DNA from: Haloarcula nitratireducens
GTDB taxonomy: Archaea; Halobacteriota; Halobacteria; Halobacteriales; Haloarculaceae
Direction of reading: 5' to 3'
Assembly: GCF_019599505.1 (NCBI RefSeq)
Contig: NZ_RKLT01000049.1
Location: forward strand, 1 to 11,325
Length of the DNA stretch: 11,325 nt
Shown: positions 1 through 10,856 of the stretch, piece after piece
Position numbering within the stretch: the stretch's first letter is position 1
Layout: each line of letters begins with the position of its first letter
Notes under the pieces: generated by a model
Seen by the model: only the letters and a program-made list of their open reading frames with translations
The model's database searches: none
What the model was told of the DNA's origin: nothing
Position numbers and translations under genes: made by a program

Positions 1-1645
1 TGTCGTTGGGTCGGTCGATGCCGAGTTTCTCGATCAGGTTGGGACCACCCAGATGAACCGTCTCGCCGTCGACAGTGGCTCTGACGCCGAGACCGCGGAG
101 GTTCTCGAAGTTCGAGACCTGCGCTCGTTGGATGTCACGTTCGGCGGCGGCGTTCCGGATGGCGCGAGCGATCATGTGCTCGGAGTCGCCCTCGACGCCC
201 GCAGCAACCTCGAACGCGCGCTGTTCGTCCCAGTCGCCCGCCGTCGCGACGCCGACGACGCCCTGCTCACCCTTCGTGAGCGTCCCGGTCTTGTCGAACA
301 TCACCGTATCGAGGTTCCGAGCCTCTTCCATGGCGATGCGGTCGCGGATGAGCATCCCGTTCTGGGCGGCCGTGGAGGTGTTGATCGCCACTACAAGTGG
401 GACGGCCAGACCGAGTGCGTGCGGACACGCGATAACGAGAACGGTGACGACGCGTTCGAGGACGCCGATGTTGAACCCCTGTACGATGATCCACGCGATG
501 GCCGTAATCGCTGCGACGCCGAGTGCCACGTAAAACAGCCAGCCGGCTGCTCGGTCGGCCAGGAGTTGCGTGCGGGATTTGGACTGCTGGGCCTCGTCGA
601 CGAGGCGCATGATGCCTGCCAGCGTCGTTTCGTCGCCAGTCTTCGTCACCCGAACACGGAGGCTGCCGTCCTGGTTGACTGTGCCAGCGACGACTTCCGA
701 CTCGGGTTCCTTGTCCACGGACCGGGACTCGCCGGTGATCATCGACTCGTCGACCGAGGACTCACCGTCGACGACTTCGCCGTCCGCAGGTACACTCGCA
801 CCCGGACGAACGAGAACAACGTCGCCCTCGTCGAGTTCGGAAACGGGAACCTCCTCCGTATCTCCGCTCTCGGTGATGCGCTCGGCGGTGTCGGGCATGA
901 GTTTCGCCAGTTCGTCGAGCGCACCGGAAGCCTGCCGAACCGAGCGCATCTCCATCCAGTGGCCCAGCAGCATGATGTCGATCAGCGTGACGAGCTCCCA
1001 GAAAAAGGGGGTCGTCCCCTCGAGAAACAAACTTGCAACCGAGTAGACGAATGCAACGGTAATCGCCAGCGAGATGAGCATCATCATCCCTGGCTCGCGA
1101 TTTTCCAGTTCGGAGCGGGCCATCGAGAGGAACGGCACGCCACCGTACGCGAAGATAATCACCGAGAGGACAGGTGTGATCCAGCCGCTCCCGGGGAACG
1201 TCGGCGCCGTGTAGCCGAAGACGTCCTGAATGAATTCACTAAAGAAGAGAACTGGCACTGAAAGGATGAGCGACACCCAGAATCGCCGCCGGAACATCTG
1301 TTCGTGGCCCGTGTGATCCGTATGTGCGCCGTGATCTTCGTGCTCTCCCTCATGGCCGTGGGTGCCCTGGTCGTGAGCCCCGTGGCCGTGCTCATCGGCT
1401 ACGTCGTGAGTGTGCTCTGTTTCAGAGTGAGAGTGCCCGCGCTCGACCGTCTCGGCGTCACGGCGCTTCTCGTAATCTGACGGATGACTGTGCTGAGGGG
1501 ACGGCGGAGGGACAGTATCTTCCGTCCCAGAACTGGCTTCTAGCTGGCAGATACGGCAACATCGGACTGTGGCATTGGGCTGTCGGGAGGAGCGAGGGTC
1601 TGGTGACGACTCGTCCGTGTGCTCGTGGTGGGGATGATTGCTCAT
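1..1645 (-). CDS. copB: CopB-type copper-translocating P1B-ATPase, 3' end outside window
   Basis: Heavy-metal P-type ATPase of the plasma membrane that exports copper using ATP. 548 codons are visible, open to the window edge. The first ~114 residues hold about 20 His in HGH/HSH-like clusters and one Cys cluster, CCRIC (29-33). Likely TM helices lie near 121-140, 155-175, 187-207, 217-232, 366-388 and 395-420. Seen motifs: TGES actuator loop (304-307), CPH transport motif in the membrane (407-409), DKTGT phosphorylation site (Asp451), and SEHMIARAI (488-496) where P1B enzymes usually have SEHP. CPH plus a His-rich tail is the signature of CopB/P1B-3 pumps, as opposed to CPC in CopA. The ATP-binding remainder and the GDGxND region lie beyond position 1. 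Start ATG 1645 gives the His-rich N-terminus; AAGGAGGAA lies 18 nt upstream, too far for a normal ribosome site. Family call is firm; the Cu(I)/Cu(II)/Ag preference is not decidable from sequence. Confidence 0.93.
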
Positions 1646-1663
1646 GGGTGTATATCGGCGTCG

Positions 1664-1672
1664 TTCCTCCTT
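1664..1672 (-). promoter_or_regulatory. Strong Shine-Dalgarno-like motif in the copB leader
   Basis: The minus strand reads AAGGAGGAA here, ending 18 nt before the ATG at 1645. The spacing is about twice the usual one and no in-frame ATG or GTG lies closer, only a TTG at 1675 on the wrong side. It may be chance, a regulatory element, or serve an unrecognised start. Confidence 0.3.
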
Positions 1673-1704
1673 CAATTGTATCTGGTTCCTGAGACTACGA
1701 ATAG

Positions 1705-2324: not shown

Positions 2325-2360
2325 ATGACTAAGCAACCCAGAGTGAGGTGGAGTGAATGA
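2325..2360 (+). CDS. Possible 11-residue leader ORF overlapping the regulator start (ATGA)
   Basis: ATG 2325 opens an 11-codon ORF (MTKQPRVRWSE) whose TGA stop (2358-2360) overlaps the ATG (2357-2359) of the next gene in the classic ATGA arrangement used for translational coupling. The AGGTGGA sequence just before the overlap could serve reinitiation. No homology can be claimed for so short a peptide, and chance is possible. Confidence 0.25.
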   Translation: MTKQPRVRWSE

Positions 2361-2944
2361 ATCAACGCCGGGCCGACACGGTGGTCGGCCTTCTCGTCGC
2401 CGCCGTCCTCCTCGTCGGCGGTGCGCTCATCTGGCAGGCGTACCAGCAACAGCGAGCCTTCGACCAGATGGGATCGATGATGGGGACATCGATGGGGGCC
2501 GTCCACGGGACGAATCCGCTCTGGTACGTTCTTGGGACGTTACTTGTCGCCGTCGTCATCGGCGGCCTCTATCTTACCGTCCGTGACGATCTCTCCGTAG
2601 CTGCAAGTGCTCAACCGTTGAACGAGTCATCGAGCACGGCCAGCGAGGAAGTCGACAACTCACCGCAGAGTGACGTCCAACCGGACGACGCGATCAATCC
2701 AGAAGAGCAGCCACAGACTCGTGTTCTCGACCTCCTGCCGGACGACGAACGCCGGATTCTCGAACCGGTGCTCTCCTCGCCTGGCATCACACAGATCGAA
2801 CTGCGGGATCGCTCGGACTTTTCGAAGAGCAAGGTGAGCCAGACAGTGAGTGCCCTCGAAAAGCGCGGCCTGTTGTATCGCGAACGGCAGGGGCGGACGT
2901 ACCGCATCTATCCGAGTGACGAGTTGCAGCAGAACCAGGTCTAG
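2357..2944 (+). CDS. Membrane-anchored winged-helix regulator with Met-rich outer loop
   Basis: A 195-residue protein. Two hydrophobic helices lie at about 8-28 and 55-75; the loop between them holds QMGSMMGTSMGAVHG (Met38, 41, 42, 46; His50). An acidic, Ser-rich linker (76-120) leads to a C-terminal winged helix (about 123-187) with the MarR/ArsR-like layout: a helix ending at the DRSDFSKSKVSQTVSALEKRG recognition region followed by a wing (RERQGRTYRIYP). Tail and wing should face the cytoplasm, placing the Met cluster outside. Haloarchaea have many such membrane-bound HTH proteins of unknown ligand. Next to copB, the Met/His cluster suggests Cu(I) or Ag(I) sensing outside the cell and transcription control inside; this is inference. 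ATG 2357 is preceded by AGGTGGA. A TATA-like AT-rich stretch lies near 2279-2291. Confidence 0.8.
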   Translation: MNQRRADTVVGLLVAAVLLVGGALIWQAYQQQRAFDQMGSMMGTSMGAVHGTNPLWYVLGTLLVAVVIGGLYLTVRDDLSVAASAQPLNESSSTASEEVDNSPQSDVQPDDAINPEEQPQTRVLDLLPDDERRILEPVLSSPGITQIELRDRSDFSKSKVSQTVSALEKRGLLYRERQGRTYRIYPSDELQQNQV

Positions 2945-2950
2945 TAGGGT

Positions 2951-2978
2951 TGACAGTCGGGAAAAACCGAGATTGTCA
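2951..2978. terminator. Hairpin between convergent genes
   Basis: TGACA-G-TCGG (2951-2960) can pair with CCGA-GAT-TGTCA (2967-2978): 9 pairs interrupted by an internal bulge, with an A-rich 6-nt loop. It sits between the end of the plus-strand regulator (2944) and the end of the minus-strand permease remnant (2976), a natural site for a bidirectional terminator. There is no long U tract. Confidence 0.4.
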
Positions 2979-3465
2979 GTCGGCGGCGTGAGCGTGCTCG
3001 CCGTGTCCCTCCTCGCCAACCGAATCCGAGCTGTGAAGCCAGTAGAGGAACAGGAAGAAGATCGTCGCGAGCACGTTCAGGACCATCTTGTAGTTCATCT
3101 CGGCCGATAGTCGCGGCGGCGGAGCCCCCCTTCTTGAAGAGGTTCTTCGCCGTGGCGATTGCTGAGTACGAACACGACGAGGAGACGAACCCGAACAGTG
3201 ACCCGTAGCCGAGTTCCCGGAGGCCGTGGCCGTCTAGCAGGTCAGAAACCTTTTCGTCGGATGTCCAGGCCTCGACGCCGCCGGCGATGGCGAACCCAAT
3301 GACCAGCGCCCACCACGTGATCCACGCCATCGCTGCTGTTGTCGAGAGGAACTGGCGCGTACTCTCGACGAAGAACGGCACCAAGGGCTTCGATGTCGTG
3401 AATACACCGAGCGCCACCGTCGCCAGCGCGATGACCGCGAGGATCGCGTATTCCTTTTTCTCCAT
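2976..3465 (-). pseudogene. ArsP/DUF318-type permease broken by internal deletion and frameshift
   Basis: Reading from ATG 3465, the first ~120 residues look like the start of a DUF318/ArsP permease (PF03773): two membrane helices near 7-25 and 47-65, then the family hallmark SSSCSYSAIATAKNLFKKG. Right after this the frame runs into Arg-rich, non-membrane sequence. A different frame takes over at about 3104-3110 (AEMNYKMVLNVLATIFFLFLYWLH) and ends in a Gly/His tail (EEGHGEHAHAAD) at TGA 2978-2976. The second piece looks like the last membrane helix and metal-binding-like tail of the same permease. Intact family members are usually over 300 residues, so most of the middle has been lost at a junction near 3105-3125. 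ArsP homologues export organoarsenicals; other members are of unknown substrate. The product is very unlikely to work. Confidence 0.8.
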
Positions 3466-3796: not shown

Positions 3797-4069
3797 ATGA
3801 GAGACGAGACGGACGACGTTCGCATGTAACTCGTTGACTGCAGGTACAACAACCGCGACCTCATCGTCCTCAAGGGCGCAACCCCCGACGGCATGCGGCT
3901 CTTCCGGCGAGAGCTTGCTGCACAGGCTGTCGATTTGGACTCAGTGACTGCTGCGAAGGACGTCTCAGCGTCTGGTCTCGAAAACGTTGACAACCTGGAA
4001 CTCCGGGAACGATACGAATCGGAAGTCGAGCGGATGATCGCCCAACACGACCCCAATGATACGATTTAA
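3797..4069 (+). pseudogene. Broken hypothetical gene with in-frame TAA
   Basis: ATG 3797 opens a frame that meets TAA at 3827-3829 after ten codons, then continues open to TAA 4067-4069. The downstream part (LVDCRYNNRDLIVLKG..., then ATPDGMRLFRRELAAQAVDL... and ending SEVERMIAQHDPNDTI) has the acidic, GC-ending codon style of haloarchaeal genes. The opposite strand gives only Ser/Arg-rich shadow sequence. If the stop is real the gene is either dead or restarts at ATG 3893, leaving 58 residues. I do not recognise the family. A sequencing or base error at 3827 is the alternative explanation. Confidence 0.45.
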
Positions 4070-4286: not shown

Positions 4287-5081
4287 TCAGAGTTCCGGGA
4301 CAGCTGTGAACAGCAGGACGAACGCGTTCACGGTCAACAGCGCCAGCACAACCCACTGGAAGATACGCTCGGGTATGTGGTCGAAGATGTAGACGCCGAC
4401 CCACGCACCAAGGAACACCATCGGAACGGCTATTGCGGCCTCGATCATCAGCGTCGTCGTCACGGTCCCCGTGTACGTGAGGCTCCCGAGACGATACAGC
4501 ATGAGCGTGCCGAAAAAGGCGGTGAACGTCGCTTTCATTTCTTCACCGCTCCAGAATCCGCTGGCGGACATGAACGCGCCGTAAACGATCATCGGCGGGC
4601 CGGGGACGGCGACGGCACCGCCGAAAATCCCCGCAAGGAGACCGGCCGTCGCGCCGACGATCTTCCCCGGTCTGTAATCCTTGTCCTCGATCCAGCCAGT
4701 GACGACGTCGAGTTGCTGGGTCGCGCCGACGATGATGACCGCAAGCACGAGAACCGCCCCGATAGCGACGCGCATCTGTGCCTTGTTAAACTGGCTGAAC
4801 ACGTAGATGCCAAGCGGCATCCCAACGACGAGTCCACCGACTGGAACGATCCACTTGCGCCAGTCGAACGCGTCCCGGACGCTCCACCAGACGCGGGCGT
4901 TGCTCACGACCGCCGTCGCGGTGAAGATGATTGAGGCACTTGAAGGCGACCGGAACAGCGGCATCAGACCCATCGACACCTGCGCGAATCCGAACCCGGC
5001 GATCCCGTGAATAACGGACGCAGCGAGGATGACAACCGCAGACAGCCCCGTCGTTACCCAGTTAGCTGTCAGCGTGACCAC
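4287..5081 (-). CDS. TauE/SafE family sulfite (sulfonate) exporter-type permease
   Basis: 264 residues, nearly all hydrophobic, with about eight membrane helices arranged as two similar halves. The first half carries HGIAGFGFAQVSMGLMPL near 25-42, and the second carries GLLAGIFGGAVAVPGPPMIVY (about 148-168), both typical of TauE/SafE (PF01925). The length fits the family. These permeases sit in the plasma membrane and are proposed to export sulfite, sulfoacetate or related anions. It is transcribed away from the SoxB-like/persulfide dioxygenase operon across a 280-nt shared upstream region, so export of sulfite produced by that operon is the natural guess. The start is GTG 5081; no upstream in-frame ATG is present. 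Substrate is not deducible from sequence. Confidence 0.88.
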   Translation of the reverse strand: MVTLTANWVTTGLSAVVILAASVIHGIAGFGFAQVSMGLMPLFRSPSSASIIFTATAVVSNARVWWSVRDAFDWRKWIVPVGGLVVGMPLGIYVFSQFNKAQMRVAIGAVLVLAVIIVGATQQLDVVTGWIEDKDYRPGKIVGATAGLLAGIFGGAVAVPGPPMIVYGAFMSASGFWSGEEMKATFTAFFGTLMLYRLGSLTYTGTVTTTLMIEAAIAVPMVFLGAWVGVYIFDHIPERIFQWVVLALLTVNAFVLLFTAVPEL

Positions 5082-5127
5082 CTCGCCGTTCGAACAAGCG
5101 CGTACATCTCTGCTCGGCCAATACTAC

Positions 5128-5170
5128 GGCCTTCTCTCTTAGGCAATTTCTCCCTAAGAAGCGTAAGGCC
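5128..5170. promoter_or_regulatory. Nested inverted repeat in the divergent upstream region
   Basis: TCTTAGG (5137-5143) pairs with CCTAAGA (5153-5159), and outside it GGCCTT (5128-5133) pairs with AAGGCC (5165-5170): 13 pairs in two perfect blocks, joined by 3- and 5-nt gaps. The element is 47-89 nt upstream of the exporter's GTG, where a promoter or operator is expected. It may be an operator for the exporter, or a hairpin in its leader. Confidence 0.4.
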
Positions 5171-5258
5171 AGTGACTCACTCATCCTTCGAACCTGCCAC
5201 TAGATCGTACTACGAGACTGTTTTGCAAATCGAACTCGACCGGTCTCGGGTTTCAGTC

Positions 5259-5292
5259 GACTATGTAGCCGATAGCGAACCCATACGTAGTC
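5259..5292. promoter_or_regulatory. Inverted repeat just upstream of the SoxB-like operon promoter
   Basis: GACTATGTA (5259-5267) and TACGTAGTC (5284-5292) are complementary at 8 of 9 positions with a 16-nt spacer. They end 16 nt before the TATA-like sequence, a usual place for an activator or repressor site in archaea. Confidence 0.35.
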
Positions 5293-5303
5293 TTGTGCAG
5301 TCT

Positions 5304-5315
5304 TTCGAATTTTAA
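5304..5315 (+). promoter_or_regulatory. TATA-like promoter of the SoxB-like operon
   Basis: TTCGAATTTTAA (5304-5314) resembles a haloarchaeal BRE/TATA site. Transcription would start about 25 nt downstream, near 5338, giving a leader of some 20-25 nt before ATG 5362. No Shine-Dalgarno sequence is seen. Confidence 0.4.
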
Positions 5316-5361
5316 CCACAACTTATGAACAGCCAACGGTCGTATCTACAGTCACGTCACG

Positions 5362-7149
5362 ATGAACCAGGACGAGACATCTATCGGCGAGTGGCAATCT
5401 CTAGATGGTGACCCTGCGCATGACAGGACAGGCGACCCAGACGTCGTCTTCGCGCACGTCAGCGACCTCCACGGACAGCTCACGCCACGCTACCAGGTCT
5501 ATTACGACAACCCCACGTCGAAACCGAACTTCGAGTTCGGAGACGACGACCGCGTCATCAAGCGCGGTGGCGGGATTCCCCTGCTCGCGGCCAAACTGGA
5601 CGAACTCCGCGAGGACGACGAGGTCTGCACCCTGATGAGCGGTGATACGTTCCACGGCTCCGCCGTGACCACCTACACCGACGGGCAGGGAATGCTCGAG
5701 CCCATCAACGAGCACGTCGCGCCCGACGTCTATGTCCCCGGGAACTGGGATTACTCGAACGAGGCCGTCGAGGACGGCAACTTCGTGGAACTCATGGATG
5801 ATCTCGACGCCATGGTCCTCGCGAACAACCTCTACGACTGGGAGACTGACGAGCGGCTGTACGACGCGTACAGCATCCTCGAGGTCGGCGGACTCTCCGT
5901 AGGCGTCGTCGGCATGACGAACGTCTACGTCGACCGGATGGCTCCTTCGTTCTGGGAAGGGAAGTACCGGTTCGGCAAGCACCCCGCACTCCTCGAAGAG
6001 TCAGCACAGGCCGCCCGCGAGGACGGCGCGGACATCGTGGTAGCGGTCACCGAAATCGGCCTGCCGTGGATGGTCCAGGCTGCGAAGGACTGTCCGAGCG
6101 TGGACGTGATGTTCAGCGCCCACACTCACGAGTACACCTACGACCCCATCGTCGTTGAGGAGACTGACACCGTGATCGTCGAGTCCGGCATGGGCGAAGC
6201 GCTCGGCCGCGTGGACCTCCGCGTTCACGATGGCGAGGTGCAGTTCCGACACCACCTCTACTGTCTCACTGAGGACGGCGAGCACACCCCCGATCCCGAC
6301 GAGGAGGCCAGAGAGACGGTCGAGTCCGTTCGCGCGCCGTTCTTCGAGGACGACCCCGAGTTCGAGCGGGGAGCCGGAACGCTCGACCGACCCCTCGATA
6401 CGATCGTCGGAGAGACCGAAACACCGCTCTACCGACAGTCGTTCCTCGAGAGCGCGTGGAACACGCTGTTCAATGACGCACTCAAAGCCTACTTCGACAC
6501 TGATCTGGCCGTCTCACATGGGTTTCGATATGGGACCGCTATCCCGCCCGGTGACATCACGCTCAGCGAACTCTACACGTTCTTCCCGATGGCGGCGCCC
6601 GTCGCCCGCGGCGTCGCGTACGGCCAGCAACTCACGAGCCACATGGAGGAGTTCCTTGAGGACAACTTCACGCCCTACCCGTACGACCAGGAGGACGGCC
6701 GCGTCCGGAACTTCTCCTCGAACGTCGAGGTGACCGTCGACCCGACCGCAAAGCGCGGCCGTCGCCTCGTCGAGATGCGTATCGACGGCGAACCGGTCGA
6801 CCCCGAAGAGACGTACTCGGTGGCGACTTTCCGCAGGCCCGGCGATCCCGAACGCGACCTCGGTAACTGCGGGTTCCCGTTCCAGGACGTCAAGGTCGAC
6901 GACGGGACGATACCGGTCGACGTCCTCGTCGAGTTCCTCGAAGAACACTCACCAGTCGACTACGAGGTGATGGGACTGGTTGAGACTGCGGACGATGGTG
7001 GCGGCGCCCAGAACACGCCTGCCGACGGGCCGTATCCGTTCATCCAGCCAGGCGTCGACTATCAGGGCGGAGAGGCCTACTGCGAGACGTCCATGATTCC
7101 CCGTGGGAACGATTTCCCCGAAGAAGGGCGTAATCGAAGCGCTAGATAG
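5362..7149 (+). CDS. SoxB-like metallophosphoesterase / 5'-nucleotidase family protein
   Basis: 595 residues. The N-terminal calcineurin-type domain (about 27-300) shows HVSDLHGQL (Asp35, His37), SGDTFHGS (Asp95), PGNWDYS (Asn128, Trp129, Asp130) and FSAHTHE (His254, His256). The C-terminal 5'-nucleotidase domain (about 345-560) has GFRYGTAIPPGDITLSELY and FPMAAPVARGV. Trp129, where nucleotidases have the catalytic His of GNHE, and the order of motifs resemble SoxB, the thiosulfohydrolase that frees sulfate from the SoxYZ carrier. Odd points: the metal-ligand His of the usual SH-x-G motif is Glu231 (VTEIG), and no Tat or Sec signal is present, whereas bacterial SoxB is periplasmic. No SoxYZ is visible. 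It is the first gene of a likely operon with the rhodanese-dioxygenase fusion. A nucleotidase or other phosphoesterase role remains possible, but the neighbours favour sulfur chemistry. Confidence 0.82.
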   Translation: MNQDETSIGEWQSLDGDPAHDRTGDPDVVFAHVSDLHGQLTPRYQVYYDNPTSKPNFEFGDDDRVIKRGGGIPLLAAKLDELREDDEVCTLMSGDTFHGSAVTTYTDGQGMLEPINEHVAPDVYVPGNWDYSNEAVEDGNFVELMDDLDAMVLANNLYDWETDERLYDAYSILEVGGLSVGVVGMTNVYVDRMAPSFWEGKYRFGKHPALLEESAQAAREDGADIVVAVTEIGLPWMVQAAKDCPSVDVMFSAHTHEYTYDPIVVEETDTVIVESGMGEALGRVDLRVHDGEVQFRHHLYCLTEDGEHTPDPDEEARETVESVRAPFFEDDPEFERGAGTLDRPLDTIVGETETPLYRQSFLESAWNTLFNDALKAYFDTDLAVSHGFRYGTAIPPGDITLSELYTFFPMAAPVARGVAYGQQLTSHMEEFLEDNFTPYPYDQEDGRVRNFSSNVEVTVDPTAKRGRRLVEMRIDGEPVDPEETYSVATFRRPGDPERDLGNCGFPFQDVKVDDGTIPVDVLVEFLEEHSPVDYEVMGLVETADDGGGAQNTPADGPYPFIQPGVDYQGGEAYCETSMIPRGNDFPEEGRNRSAR

Positions 7150-7196
7150 CGACGGGACACGCGACAGAGCCAACGAACGGCAATCAAACACTACAC

Positions 7197-7202
7197 AGGT
7201 GA
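7197..7202 (+). promoter_or_regulatory. Ribosome binding site of the rhodanese-dioxygenase gene
   Basis: AGGTGA lies about 6 nt before ATG 7209, good spacing for a Shine-Dalgarno site. It supports this start and translation inside an operon, 59 nt after the SoxB-like gene. Confidence 0.5.
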
Positions 7203-7208
7203 ATTACG

Positions 7209-8357
7209 ATGGTCACAAACATCACTGCGGAACAACTCGCAGACAAGATCGACGCCGACGAACAGTTCACGCTCATCGACACGCGCCCTGAAGATAGCTT
7301 CGAGGCCTGGCATGTCCGCGACGCGGAGAACGTTCCGTACGACCCTGACGAAGGGCTGAGCGAGGGGAAACTCAACGAGGTGAACGCACTGCTCGACGGG
7401 CGGCCGGTCGTCGCCATCTGCGGGAAGGGTCTGACGTCGACACCGTTCGCGTTCGACCTTGACGAGCACGGCTATGACAACGTCGAGGTCGTCACCGGCG
7501 GGATGGAAGAGTGGAGTAAGCTCTACGAGGTCGTCCCCATCGAGACGTCCAACGACGACCTCGTCGTTCGGCAGGTCCAGCGCCGGGCGAAGGGCTGTCT
7601 CGGCTACGTCGTCGGCTCGAAAGAGGCGGGAGAAGCCGTCGTGGTCGACGCAACCAGACAGACCGACCGGTTCAAAGTCGCTGCCCAGGACGCTGGGCTC
7701 TCCATAACACGCGTACTCGATACGCACGTCCACGCCGACCACATCTCGGGCAGTCCGACACTCGCTGACGAGAGCGGCGTGCCCTACCACCTCGGTGAAG
7801 CAGCCAGCGAGCGCGATGTCGAGTACGAGTACGAACCGCTATCAGATGGAGAAGTCATCGAAGTTGGCGACGTCGAGATTGAGGCGCTCCACACGCCTGG
7901 TCACACCTCTGAGATGATGAACTACCTGGTCGACGGCGAACTCCTGTTGACGGGCGATACGCTGTTCGTTGACTCTGTCGGGCGGACGGAACTCCAGTTC
8001 GGCGAAGAGGATGCGTCCCATGGCGCCGAACTACTGTACGATTCACTCCACGAGACCATCCTCGATCTGCCGGATGACACCACGATTCTGTCGGGCCACC
8101 TCACCATCACGAGCGATGGGCGCTACGAGAACGGCTCGCCGGGCGCCCCGCTCGAGGCCCGGCTCGGAAATCTACGTGAGGAACTCGATCTGCTCGGGCT
8201 CGACCGCGAAGCGTTCATCGAGCGGTTGACCGAGAACGCTCCGGAGAAACCCCCGAACTACGAGCAGGTCATCGCCATCAACACCGGCAAAACGACCGTC
8301 GAGGACGAGAGTGAAGCAACAGAACTCGAATTGGGACCTAACAACTGTGCCGCCTAA
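7209..8357 (+). CDS. Rhodanese - persulfide dioxygenase-like (MBL fold) fusion
   Basis: 382 residues. Residues 1-110 are a rhodanese domain with active-site Cys71 in CGKGLTS. Residues about 118-350 are a metallo-beta-lactamase fold of the ETHE1/persulfide dioxygenase type: THVHADH (His173, His175, Asp177, His178), HTPGHTS (His232) and TGDTLFVDSVGRTEL (Asp250). In ETHE1 the His/His/Asp corresponding to His173, His232 and Asp250 bind iron. Such enzymes oxidise a thiol persulfide with O2 to sulfite; the rhodanese part can deliver sulfane sulfur. In haloarchaea the thiol would be gamma-glutamylcysteine instead of glutathione (known biochemistry of the group; the pairing is inference). The protein is cytoplasmic. 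It ends in ELGPNNCAA, with a Cys three residues from the end. Its last 47 nt overlap the longest reading of the next gene. A generic glyoxalase-II-like hydrolase is the alternative, less likely given the fusion. Confidence 0.88.
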   Translation: MVTNITAEQLADKIDADEQFTLIDTRPEDSFEAWHVRDAENVPYDPDEGLSEGKLNEVNALLDGRPVVAICGKGLTSTPFAFDLDEHGYDNVEVVTGGMEEWSKLYEVVPIETSNDDLVVRQVQRRAKGCLGYVVGSKEAGEAVVVDATRQTDRFKVAAQDAGLSITRVLDTHVHADHISGSPTLADESGVPYHLGEAASERDVEYEYEPLSDGEVIEVGDVEIEALHTPGHTSEMMNYLVDGELLLTGDTLFVDSVGRTELQFGEEDASHGAELLYDSLHETILDLPDDTTILSGHLTITSDGRYENGSPGAPLEARLGNLREELDLLGLDREAFIERLTENAPEKPPNYEQVIAINTGKTTVEDESEATELELGPNNCAA

Positions 8358-9789
8358 CAGACAGCGACCACTCACCCGTCGCAGGCTCCTCCAGCTGACG
8401 GGAGCATCTACTCTCGGAGCGCTCGCGGGCTGTGGCAGTCAACTACCTGGAAGTGACGATGACGAAGGTCGTGAGGTGACGCCGCGCTCGACAGTCACGT
8501 CCGAGCCAGATAGCTCCGTCAGTCTCACTGCGGGGGCCGGAACAATTCAACCGGGTCCCGATGTATCGACATCTAACTGGCTGTACGACGAGCAGTTCCC
8601 GGGGCCGGAACTCCGTGTACAGGAGGGGGACGTGCTCAGCGTTGAGTTGACCAACGACCTCGAAGCAGAGACCACGATTCACTGGCACGGGGTCCCGGTT
8701 CCGAACCCCGTCGACGGTGTTCCGGGAGTGACACAGGAACCAATCGCGCCCGGCGAAACGTTCGAGTACAGGTTTCGTGCCGAACCCGCCGGGACGTATT
8801 TCTATCACAGTCACGTCGGACTCCAACTCGACCGTGGGCTGCTTGGGCCACTAATCGTCGAAGAGCGTGACCCACACGTCGAGTACGACCGCGAGTACGT
8901 CGTTGTCCTCGACGATTACCTCCCAGACGAGCCTCAGCTGCCGTCAGACGGAGGGAGAGGGGGCGGTGGGATGGGCGGAGGAATGGGTGGCGGCGGTATG
9001 ATGGGCGACGTTCGGCCACCCTACGACGGACTCCTCATCAACGGTCGACTCCCCGAGGATCCCCAGACATTCGGCGTCACGGAAGGCGAGCGGATTCGCT
9101 TTCGGTTCGTGAACGCCGGCAGCGCGACGGTCTTCGGCGTCCGAATCGCCGGCCACGAGATGACAGTGACCCACGCCGATGGCCGCCCCGTCGACCCCGT
9201 CGACGTGGACTCGTTCGCCTTCGGTGCCGGCGAGCGCTACGATGTCGTGGTCGAAGCGACGAACCCAGGACGATGGTTCGTTCAGGCGGACGCACTCGAC
9301 GGGAACGAACCACCAGCCAGAGCGGTCGTCGAATATGAGGGCACCGACGGCACTAACACACCACAGGTTCCGTCGTCGCCCGGCGACCAGCTACAGTACA
9401 GCGACCTGCAGGCGATTTCTTCGCTCGACGGCGTGAGCGGGAGCCCTGACCGGACGTTCGATCTGACCCTCTCTCGCGGCGGCGGCCAATCGTATACGTG
9501 GACGATCGACGGGCAGACCTATCCGGACGCCGATCCGCTCCGAATTCGACCTGGAGAGCACGTCCGGATTCGGATGACCAACCAGAGTCCAGTCGTCCAT
9601 CCGATGCACCTCCACGGCCACTTCTTTCAGGTTGGCAACGCTGTCAAGGATACCGTTATGGTGCCGGGGCATCGGGGGCAGGTGACGCTGGACTTCCACG
9701 CAGACAATCCCGGCCGGTGGCTGTTCCACTGTCACAATCTATATCACCTCGACGCAGGCATGGCTCGCATCGTGAAATACGTCGAGTGA
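8311..9789 (+). CDS. Tat-exported lipoprotein multicopper oxidase (laccase/CueO-like)
   Basis: 492 residues from GTG 8311. Signal: TRRRLLQLTG (22-31), a hydrophobic stretch and lipobox LAGC (Cys41), so a Tat lipoprotein anchored outside the membrane. Three cupredoxin domains follow with the full copper set: HWH (124-126), HSH (166-168), HPMHLHGH (430-437) and HCHNLYHLDAGM (473-484; Cys474 with His430, His479 and Met484 as type 1 ligands). Such enzymes couple substrate or Cu(I) oxidation to reduction of O2 to water. A Gly/Met insert (214-232; five Met in or next to it) recalls the Met-rich segment of the cuprous oxidase CueO. GTG 8311 has GAGG upstream; GTG 8347 (residue 13) would give a more usual short n-region and only an 11-nt overlap, so either start is possible. 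Overlap with the dioxygenase fusion implies co-transcription. Substrate unknown. Confidence 0.9.
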   Translation: MKQQNSNWDLTTVPPNRQRPLTRRRLLQLTGASTLGALAGCGSQLPGSDDDEGREVTPRSTVTSEPDSSVSLTAGAGTIQPGPDVSTSNWLYDEQFPGPELRVQEGDVLSVELTNDLEAETTIHWHGVPVPNPVDGVPGVTQEPIAPGETFEYRFRAEPAGTYFYHSHVGLQLDRGLLGPLIVEERDPHVEYDREYVVVLDDYLPDEPQLPSDGGRGGGGMGGGMGGGGMMGDVRPPYDGLLINGRLPEDPQTFGVTEGERIRFRFVNAGSATVFGVRIAGHEMTVTHADGRPVDPVDVDSFAFGAGERYDVVVEATNPGRWFVQADALDGNEPPARAVVEYEGTDGTNTPQVPSSPGDQLQYSDLQAISSLDGVSGSPDRTFDLTLSRGGGQSYTWTIDGQTYPDADPLRIRPGEHVRIRMTNQSPVVHPMHLHGHFFQVGNAVKDTVMVPGHRGQVTLDFHADNPGRWLFHCHNLYHLDAGMARIVKYVE

Positions 9790-9857: not shown

Positions 9858-10856
9858 CTACTCCTCTTCCGCACTCGGCCACTGACGCGCGTCTGCTCGG
9901 ATTATTCCACGCATAGTCCGACGTCGCTCTTTGAGTTCTTCGAGCGCGTCCGCGAACTCCTCGTCAGAAACTGTCGGGATATCGTGCTCGCGGAGGACGG
10001 TGAGGTCGGGTGGCGGTGGCTGCTCGTCGGACGGCGGCGCGAACGTGCTGACCGTATCGAGGTAGCTCTGGACGCTCGACCGAGCGTCCACCATGATCGA
10101 GTCGGCGGGCCTGTTCTCTTCGGGCGTCGCTCGTTGCCAGATAGTCAGGGCGTCGTCGAGACTGGCGACGCTCAGCACGGCGGCGGCCTCGCGCTCGTCG
10201 GTGTAGAAGTAGTGGAGAATGGGGTACGCCTTGTGATTCGCGGTCAGTTTGTTCAGCGCCGTGGTGATGCTATTGAGCGGGAGTGCGACGTCCTCGAACC
10301 CGTCGCCGTTCCAAGTGGCGGCGACGATCGATCCGCCGTCCGGTCCGAGTCCGCTCACATTCCGTGCAAACGAGCGTTTCTGCGTGACGGCCTCGAGAAC
10401 GGAGAGGACGTAGGTAATGCTCAGGGTCACCAGTAGCATTCCACTGGCAGTCATCAGCGCCGTCAGGACCTGCCAGAGTTCGCCTCGTGGCGCGAAGTCG
10501 CCGTTGCCCATCGTGAACAGCGAATATCCCACGAAGTAGAATCGTTCGGCCAAGGAGATAGGGCCCGAGGCGATAGTGTCTTTTAAGGCGGTGTCAGCGC
10601 TCGCGAAGACGAACGTCCATCCGCTCCAGAGAAGGGTGATCCACATCGCAAGTCCGAGGGTTAGGACTATTGGTCCGGTCAGCGTTCGAACGCGAGGGCT
10701 ATACGCCCCGAAGCGACGCAGCGGTTTCCACGTCCACGACATCAGGCGTCCAGTAAGGGGCCCCGAACCGCCCTCAACCCAGAGCGTCGTCCACAGGAGA
10801 TCGGTTACGGCTACGACGAGCAAACCAACGCCTAATCCGAAGTAGAGATAGTTCAC
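9858..10856 (-). CDS. Two-TM-type ion channel (Ion_trans_2) with cytoplasmic domain
   Basis: 332 residues from GTG 10856. Hydrophobic helices lie at about 3-26, 60-84 and 126-153. Between the last two is a pore loop (104-121) with the filter TMGNGD (115-120), the place where K+ channels carry TVGYGD. Residues 155-332 form a soluble cytoplasmic part with a Pro-rich patch (279-283) and an acidic, charged C-terminal helix (295-315). I see no RCK/TrkA-N nucleotide-binding motif, so the tail's function is unknown. The pore-helix context YFVGYSLFTMGNGDFAP fits PF07885. Val-Gly-Tyr replaced by Met-Gly-Asn predicts loss or change of strict K+ selectivity, though this has not been shown. It is convergent with the oxidase operon. 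Regulation may act through a palindrome overlapping its TATA-like region (10900-10921). Confidence 0.82.
   Translation of the reverse strand: MNYLYFGLGVGLLVVAVTDLLWTTLWVEGGSGPLTGRLMSWTWKPLRRFGAYSPRVRTLTGPIVLTLGLAMWITLLWSGWTFVFASADTALKDTIASGPISLAERFYFVGYSLFTMGNGDFAPRGELWQVLTALMTASGMLLVTLSITYVLSVLEAVTQKRSFARNVSGLGPDGGSIVAATWNGDGFEDVALPLNSITTALNKLTANHKAYPILHYFYTDEREAAAVLSVASLDDALTIWQRATPEENRPADSIMVDARSSVQSYLDTVSTFAPPSDEQPPPPDLTVLREHDIPTVSDEEFADALEELKERRRTMRGIIRADARQWPSAEEE

Follow-up and report, generated by a model that had tools for sequence, protein, structure and literature searches.

Organization and conservation of the locus

We analysed an 11,325-nt contig of Haloarcula nitratireducens (NZ_RKLT01000049.1, assembly GCF_019599505.1; hereafter the window), which carries at positions 4287..9789 four genes encoding a TauE/SafE-family permease (TauE), a SoxB-like metallohydrolase, a fusion of rhodanese and persulfide dioxygenase domains (PDO) and a twin-arginine translocation (Tat) lipoprotein of the multicopper oxidase type (MCO). 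An earlier sequence-only reading had interpreted them as a cytoplasmic sulfane-sulfur oxidation locus working without Sox carriers, an interpretation that our analysis partly supports: a SoxB-like/PDO gene pair recurs in salt-loving archaea, often on plasmids, and might strip thiol-bound sulfur in two steps. The four open reading frames (ORFs) have the order and strands described in that reading, and Pfam places each product in its family. The 59-nt gap between the SoxB-like and PDO genes (7150-7208) was correctly reported, and so was the overlap of MCO with PDO, which amounts to 11 nt from GTG 8347, a likelier start than the listed 8311; the same 11-nt overlap is found in three annotated orthologues. 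The divergent gap between TauE and the SoxB-like gene measures 280 nt and displays only patchy conservation across 31 such gaps, in which we claim no operator.

In a class sample of 391 evenly drawn Halobacteria genomes (all statements on genome content rest on relatives' genomes), the SoxB-like gene is present in 49 (E ≤ 1e-60), and in at least 31 of these PDO follows immediately in the same orientation, 65-152 nt away; the best 55 PDO matches were used for this count, so that the other 18 genomes are to be read as 'not found'. In loci of the L022/L023/L025/L067 type, a more divergent PDO (36-40% identity) comes slightly further on. We then compared 56 loci, the window not among them, in which the SoxB-like match reaches a coverage of 90% or more; L034 and L036, which are truncated, and L005, a copy of L040, were left out, and the loci are not independent, several genomes contributing two. 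Among the 36 closer loci (~79% identity or more), counting near-full-length genes only, PDO lies directly downstream in 26, a divergent TauE is found in 26 and MCO lies downstream in 16, with all three in 11; the corresponding numbers for the 20 more distant loci are 8, 2, 1 and 0. Without the length filter, PDO, TauE, MCO and all three are counted in 30, 29, 20 and 19 of the 36, respectively, and broken or fragmentary PDO genes occur in L003, L007, L012 and L021. These counts designate the SoxB-like/PDO pair as the core, which in one clade is often joined by TauE and occasionally by MCO. The conserved adjacency of four families suggested by the sequence-only reading is thus supported for the pair but not for a fixed four-gene unit.

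Comparisons with three relatives gave dN/dS values of 0.10-0.13 for the SoxB-like gene, 0.10-0.12 for PDO, 0.07-0.12 for TauE and 0.11-0.13 for MCO (three comparisons each). Other haloarchaea repeat the gene order, and purifying selection acts on each of the four genes, so that chance does not account for the arrangement. In Halogranum amylolyticum (L034, 8001-9684) and Natrinema gelatinilyticum (L036, 8001-9541), the SoxB-like gene leads directly into MCO and the intervening PDO is lost, by apparent deletions.

The SoxB-like protein

The best NCBIfam match of the SoxB-like protein is SoxB (TIGR04486), at 207.6 bits for a cut-off of 550. Its closest solved relative, by sequence and by fold, is SoxB 2wdc, and in a tree it clusters with SoxB, apart from nucleotidases. 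It has the fold and most metal ligands of the 5'-nucleotidases (UshA, NadN, CD73, 3ivd) but lacks two of their features: the catalytic His of the GNHE motif is replaced by Trp129 in all 126 aligned haloarchaeal sequences, and the nucleobase-binding GGDGY loop is gone, replaced by a loop bearing Cys503. The Trp at the nucleotidase-His position, the SoxB fold and the two-domain build are shared with SoxB of the Sox system (Thermus thermophilus 2wdc/4uwq; Paracoccus), from which the SoxB-like protein differs by its low identity (26-28%), the extra loop cysteine, two further residues and the lack of an export signal. Asn128 and Glu231 are found in 126/126 haloarchaeal sequences, whereas His occupies both of these metal-site positions in 3/3 SoxB. 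A simple hydropathy test detects a hydrophobic N-terminal stretch in 1 of the 126 sequences, compared to two of the three SoxB, in line with the cytoplasmic location proposed earlier.

Cys503 is near-invariant; it occurs in the haloarchaeal group and in two bacterial groups of SoxB-like proteins, whereas the SoxB branch lacks it. Judged from this conservation, the protein's own cysteine is a third candidate for the role of SoxYZ, beside the small thiol or the rhodanese put forward in the sequence-only reading. An exported bacterial SoxB-like family (P0119-P0235), for which few names are given (Deltaproteobacteria, Myxococcota, Halieaceae), shares the Trp/Glu/Cys signature. One bacterial SoxB-like member has 718 matches at E ≤ 0.001, and such genes are now named '5'-nucleotidase' in both archaea and bacteria. 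On plasmids of Sporosarcina and Runella, bacterial SoxB-like genes lie near TusA, DsrE, PDO-type, TauE or YeeE genes, neighbourhoods that point the same way as the mechanism proposed below.

The rhodanese-persulfide dioxygenase

Across 35 stop-free PDO orthologues of at least 50% identity, counting that of the window, the following are invariant: Cys71 of the rhodanese domain, the HxHxDH motif, His228, His232, Asp250, Arg259 of GRT(D/E) and His297. The residues typical of persulfide dioxygenases of the ETHE1/CstB class (HxHxDH, His232, Asp250 and Arg259) are thus complete, as is the rhodanese cysteine; the enzyme identity assigned earlier agrees with intact catalytic residues, from which dioxygenase activity is predicted for the window's PDO. 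The solved relatives are 3tp9, 4ysb and 3r2u. As in CstB (3r2u), PRF (5ve3) and 3tp9, a metallo-beta-lactamase and a rhodanese domain are combined; the haloarchaeal protein differs from 3tp9 and 3r2u in having the rhodanese domain first, the opposite order, and from these known PDO-rhodanese proteins in its SoxB-like neighbour and a conserved GPNxCA tail. The cst operons also contain TauE.

Of the best 120 matches, 117, including the window's own protein, are near-full-length, and 116 of these carry this tail (window positions 8337-8357), which is reminiscent of the C-terminal cysteine arm of SoxY. The structural model has a predicted local distance difference test score (pLDDT) of 88.8 and a predicted template modelling score (pTM) of 0.88, and is weak at the tail (blocks at 65 and 37) and at residues ~251-270 (50 and 67). 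We considered the C-terminal cysteine as an operon-specific carrier arm and rejected it, because the tail is also found in PDOs lacking a SoxB-like neighbour, as well as in the Sporosarcina plasmid homologue, and is thus a family trait. Indeed, the close PDOs in 20 regions either not linked to SoxB-like genes or linked to remnants of them are all tailed (GANNCAA in L084 and L085, GPNRCAA in L086 and L087).

Sox carriers in relatives' genomes

We searched for SoxY, SoxZ, SoxA and true SoxB, SoxX and SoxCD lying outside the search, in 32 genomes of unstated completeness reached through SoxB-like loci; L024 was left out, as were L021, L030, L034, L036, L038 and L039, whose organisms were already in the set. 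SoxZ and SoxY were each found in 0/32 genomes and in 2/2 positive controls, which make a SoxZ null informative that would be uninformative by itself; the SoxYZ carrier on which SoxB relies in the Sox system is therefore missing from what was found in these genomes. Over the class sample, SoxY exceeds the cut-off in 0/391 Halobacteria, with three weak matches at E 5e-4 to 7e-4. SoxA exceeds it in 0/32 genomes (controls 2/2; seven weak matches below cut-off) and so does true SoxB (TIGR04486; controls 2/2). Below cut-off, the SoxB model matches in 32/32 genomes, most strongly the SoxB-like genes, and also in 10/14 ordinary control genomes. Within this scope, the expectation of the sequence-only reading that soxYZ would be absent and that no true Sox set would exist elsewhere was borne out, and the lack of SoxY, SoxZ and SoxA over cut-off further separates the SoxB-like proteins from SoxB of the Sox system.

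Proposed mechanism and alternatives

Our preferred interpretation, which we hold tentatively and at slightly less than an even chance, is that the pair forms a cytoplasmic, SoxYZ-independent module for the two-step stripping of thiol-bound sulfur. The SoxB-like protein would cleave the sulfonate off a thiol-thiosulfonate (R-S-S-SO3- + H2O -> R-SSH + sulfate), R being a small thiol or a protein cysteine, and PDO would, judging from its residues, oxidise the resulting persulfide (R-SSH + O2 -> R-SH + sulfite). The product of the first step being the substrate of the second, this would explain why these two genes constitute the conserved core. TauE, a clear member of the TauE/SafE family (PF01925, 78.3 bits for a cut-off of 32.6), may export the sulfite where it is present. 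The most likely role of such a module is the disposal of sulfur from thiosulfate, tetrathionate or polysulfide. According to one study, SoxB requires a terminal thiosulfonate (-S-S-SO3-) and cleaves trithionate, -S-SO3- failing to reach the metals (PMC5336275). MCO, in contrast to its place in the earlier interpretation as a working part of the sulfur pathway, is regarded here as a copper-handling neighbour in one clade, outside the sulfur chemistry: it is near-full-length downstream in only 17/56 loci. Its best NCBIfam match is the CopA-type copper-resistance oxidase (TIGR01480, 293.6 bits, under the cut-off of 478.95), and its orthologues keep the Tat arginines and the lipobox Cys in 17/17 and the copper-binding His motifs in 16 or 17 of 17.

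Several observations weigh against the proposed module, which also presupposes that a thiosulfonate would form in the cytoplasm. The SoxB-like protein scores under the curated SoxB cut-off, and Glu231, which replaces the metal-site His throughout, suggests that the metal chemistry may differ. Up to 18 of the 49 genomes have no PDO found directly downstream of the SoxB-like gene, TauE adjoins it in only 2/20 more distant loci, and the 16-kb loci L056 and L057 have a SoxB-like gene without PDO or TauE; that of L056 (7679-9460) is identical to P0074, a protein named Halodesulfurarchaeum formicicum, whose lineage is an anaerobic sulfur respirer. Conversely, PDO relatives in 375/391 Halobacteria (E ≤ 1e-60) indicate that PDO does not depend on the SoxB-like gene, and in L068 (1877-2089), L070 (3217-3435) and L072 (1957-2193) it stands beside an apparent decayed C-terminal remnant of that gene. 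Finally, PMC5336275 reports that T. thermophilus SoxB in isolation shows no turnover of its substrates. We also considered whether a separate gene encodes the SoxB-like C-terminal tail next to PDO in L068, L070 and L072, and rejected this, the frames resembling decay remnants by eye.

The alternative that we rate next, as rather unlikely, keeps the sulfur chemistry and dispenses with the thiol: the SoxB-like protein would hydrolyse free tetrathionate or trithionate and PDO would then oxidise the zero-valent sulfur, as proposed for SoxB of Erythrobacter flavus 21-3. The haloarchaeal protein has no export signal, while tetrathionate usually arises outside the cell, which argues against such a polythionate hydrolase. 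In its favour, PMC7608252 and PMC9426585 describe an E. flavus soxB mutant that forms no zero-valent sulfur in liquid medium, accumulates tetrathionate and produces less sulfate, and SdoA/SdoB that oxidise the sulfur further, in a strain without the Sox complex (PMC7608252). PMC7608252 also reports that some zero-valent sulfur is still formed by the mutant on agar, and that deletion of two further SoxB-like genes of the 5'-nucleotidase family has no effect. Slightly less credible, and in our view unlikely, is that the genes serve stress and metal tolerance each in its own right and are carried together as cargo on copper-rich plasmid islands, the SoxB-like gene and PDO belonging to no common pathway. 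Another copper-type family (MCO and the zinc-type ATPase uncounted) is indeed found in 22/36 closer loci, PDO is near-universal without the SoxB-like gene, and each of the two occurs without the other; yet the pair is kept in 8/20 more distant loci, where only 4 of all 20 have copper families, and its gaps stay at 65-152 nt across the sampled genomes. That the protein is a phosphoesterase or nucleotidase of unspecified substrate with no part in sulfur metabolism appears very improbable in view of the lost catalytic His and GGDGY loop, the grouping with SoxB rather than nucleotidases, and PDO as neighbour gene.

Returning to the thiol-based module, a bolder extension would assign a function to both cysteines. 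Cys503 would be a built-in sulfur arm bearing the thiosulfonate that the metals hydrolyse, doing the job of the SoxY cysteine; its presence in the haloarchaeal and two bacterial groups and not in the SoxB branch suggests that the recruitment of SoxYZ may have been accompanied by its loss in the Sox lineage, and the weakly ordered GPNNCAA tail of PDO might be a second arm taking the persulfide. We consider this combination improbable.

A system of this kind is already known, as SoxB without SoxYZ, followed by sulfite-making sulfur dioxygenases, is genetically supported by the E. flavus 21-3 study (TsdA-SoxB-SdoA/SdoB pathway; PMC7608252). That pathway differs from the haloarchaeal pair in being bacterial, in beginning with the periplasmic TsdA and in having been examined through its genes and mutants. 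SoxB-only scaffolds are reported for Bohai Sea sediment (379/976; PMC12345210), and the 'SoxB' of PMC3512248 is a cytochrome oxidase subunit. A paper on copper genes of Haloferax mediterranei (PMC9240420) makes no mention of sulfite, nucleotidase, rhodanese, TauE or persulfide, and no recognised description of the haloarchaeal pair was found in the open-access literature of PubMed Central (PMC). As far as this literature shows, what is new is the form seen in archaea, which is cytoplasmic, often encoded on plasmids and linked to a rhodanese-PDO, together with the Glu231/Cys503 signature that a little-named exported bacterial family also has. If the interpretation is true, SoxB-type chemistry can do without a carrier protein of its own and can proceed in the archaeal cytoplasm, Halobacteria acquire a defined route to sulfate and sulfite, the archaeal and bacterial genes now called '5'-nucleotidase' would need renaming, and a single residue, the near-invariant cysteine, allows the origin of the Sox carrier system to be tested.

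Genomic surroundings

The unit lies among copper-type genes, a point absent from the sequence-only reading (Table 1). A comparable block on plasmids of Halorarius and Halorussus extends into SHOCT, DUF302, thioredoxin-family and plastocyanin-family genes and a four-helix copper-binding protein.

Table 1. Genes of the unit and of its surroundings in the window.
Feature	Position	Strand	Remarks
TauE/SafE-family permease, 264 aa	4287..5081	-	ORF; PF01925; divergent from SoxB-like gene
SoxB-like metallohydrolase, 595 aa	5362..7149	+	ORF; PF00149 and PF02872; Trp129/Glu231/Cys503 signature
Rhodanese-persulfide dioxygenase (PDO) fusion, 382 aa	7209..8357	+	PF00581 and PF00753; rhodanese domain first; GPNNCAA C-terminus
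Tat-lipoprotein multicopper oxidase (MCO), 480 aa from GTG 8347	8347..9789	+	Three Cu-oxidase domains
P-type ATPase, N-terminal part	2-1675	-	His-rich start; runs off contig; similar plasmid DNA annotated copper-translocating
MarR-like regulator	2357-2944		Left of unit; two hydrophobic stretches (by eye)
ArsP_1-type permease	2941-3465 and 2979-3113	-	Frame-broken and incomplete; relative in L040 (8035-9363) annotated whole
Ion-channel-domain gene	9858-10856	-	Right of unit

The named close relatives of the window are haloarchaeal, and one plasmid record holds a stretch at least 99% identical to part of it. Outside the list of ORFs of at least 80 aa, positions 3797-4066 (+) encode a sequence 83% identical to a full-length 90-aa hypothetical protein of Halorarius litoreus (L040, 10942-11214).

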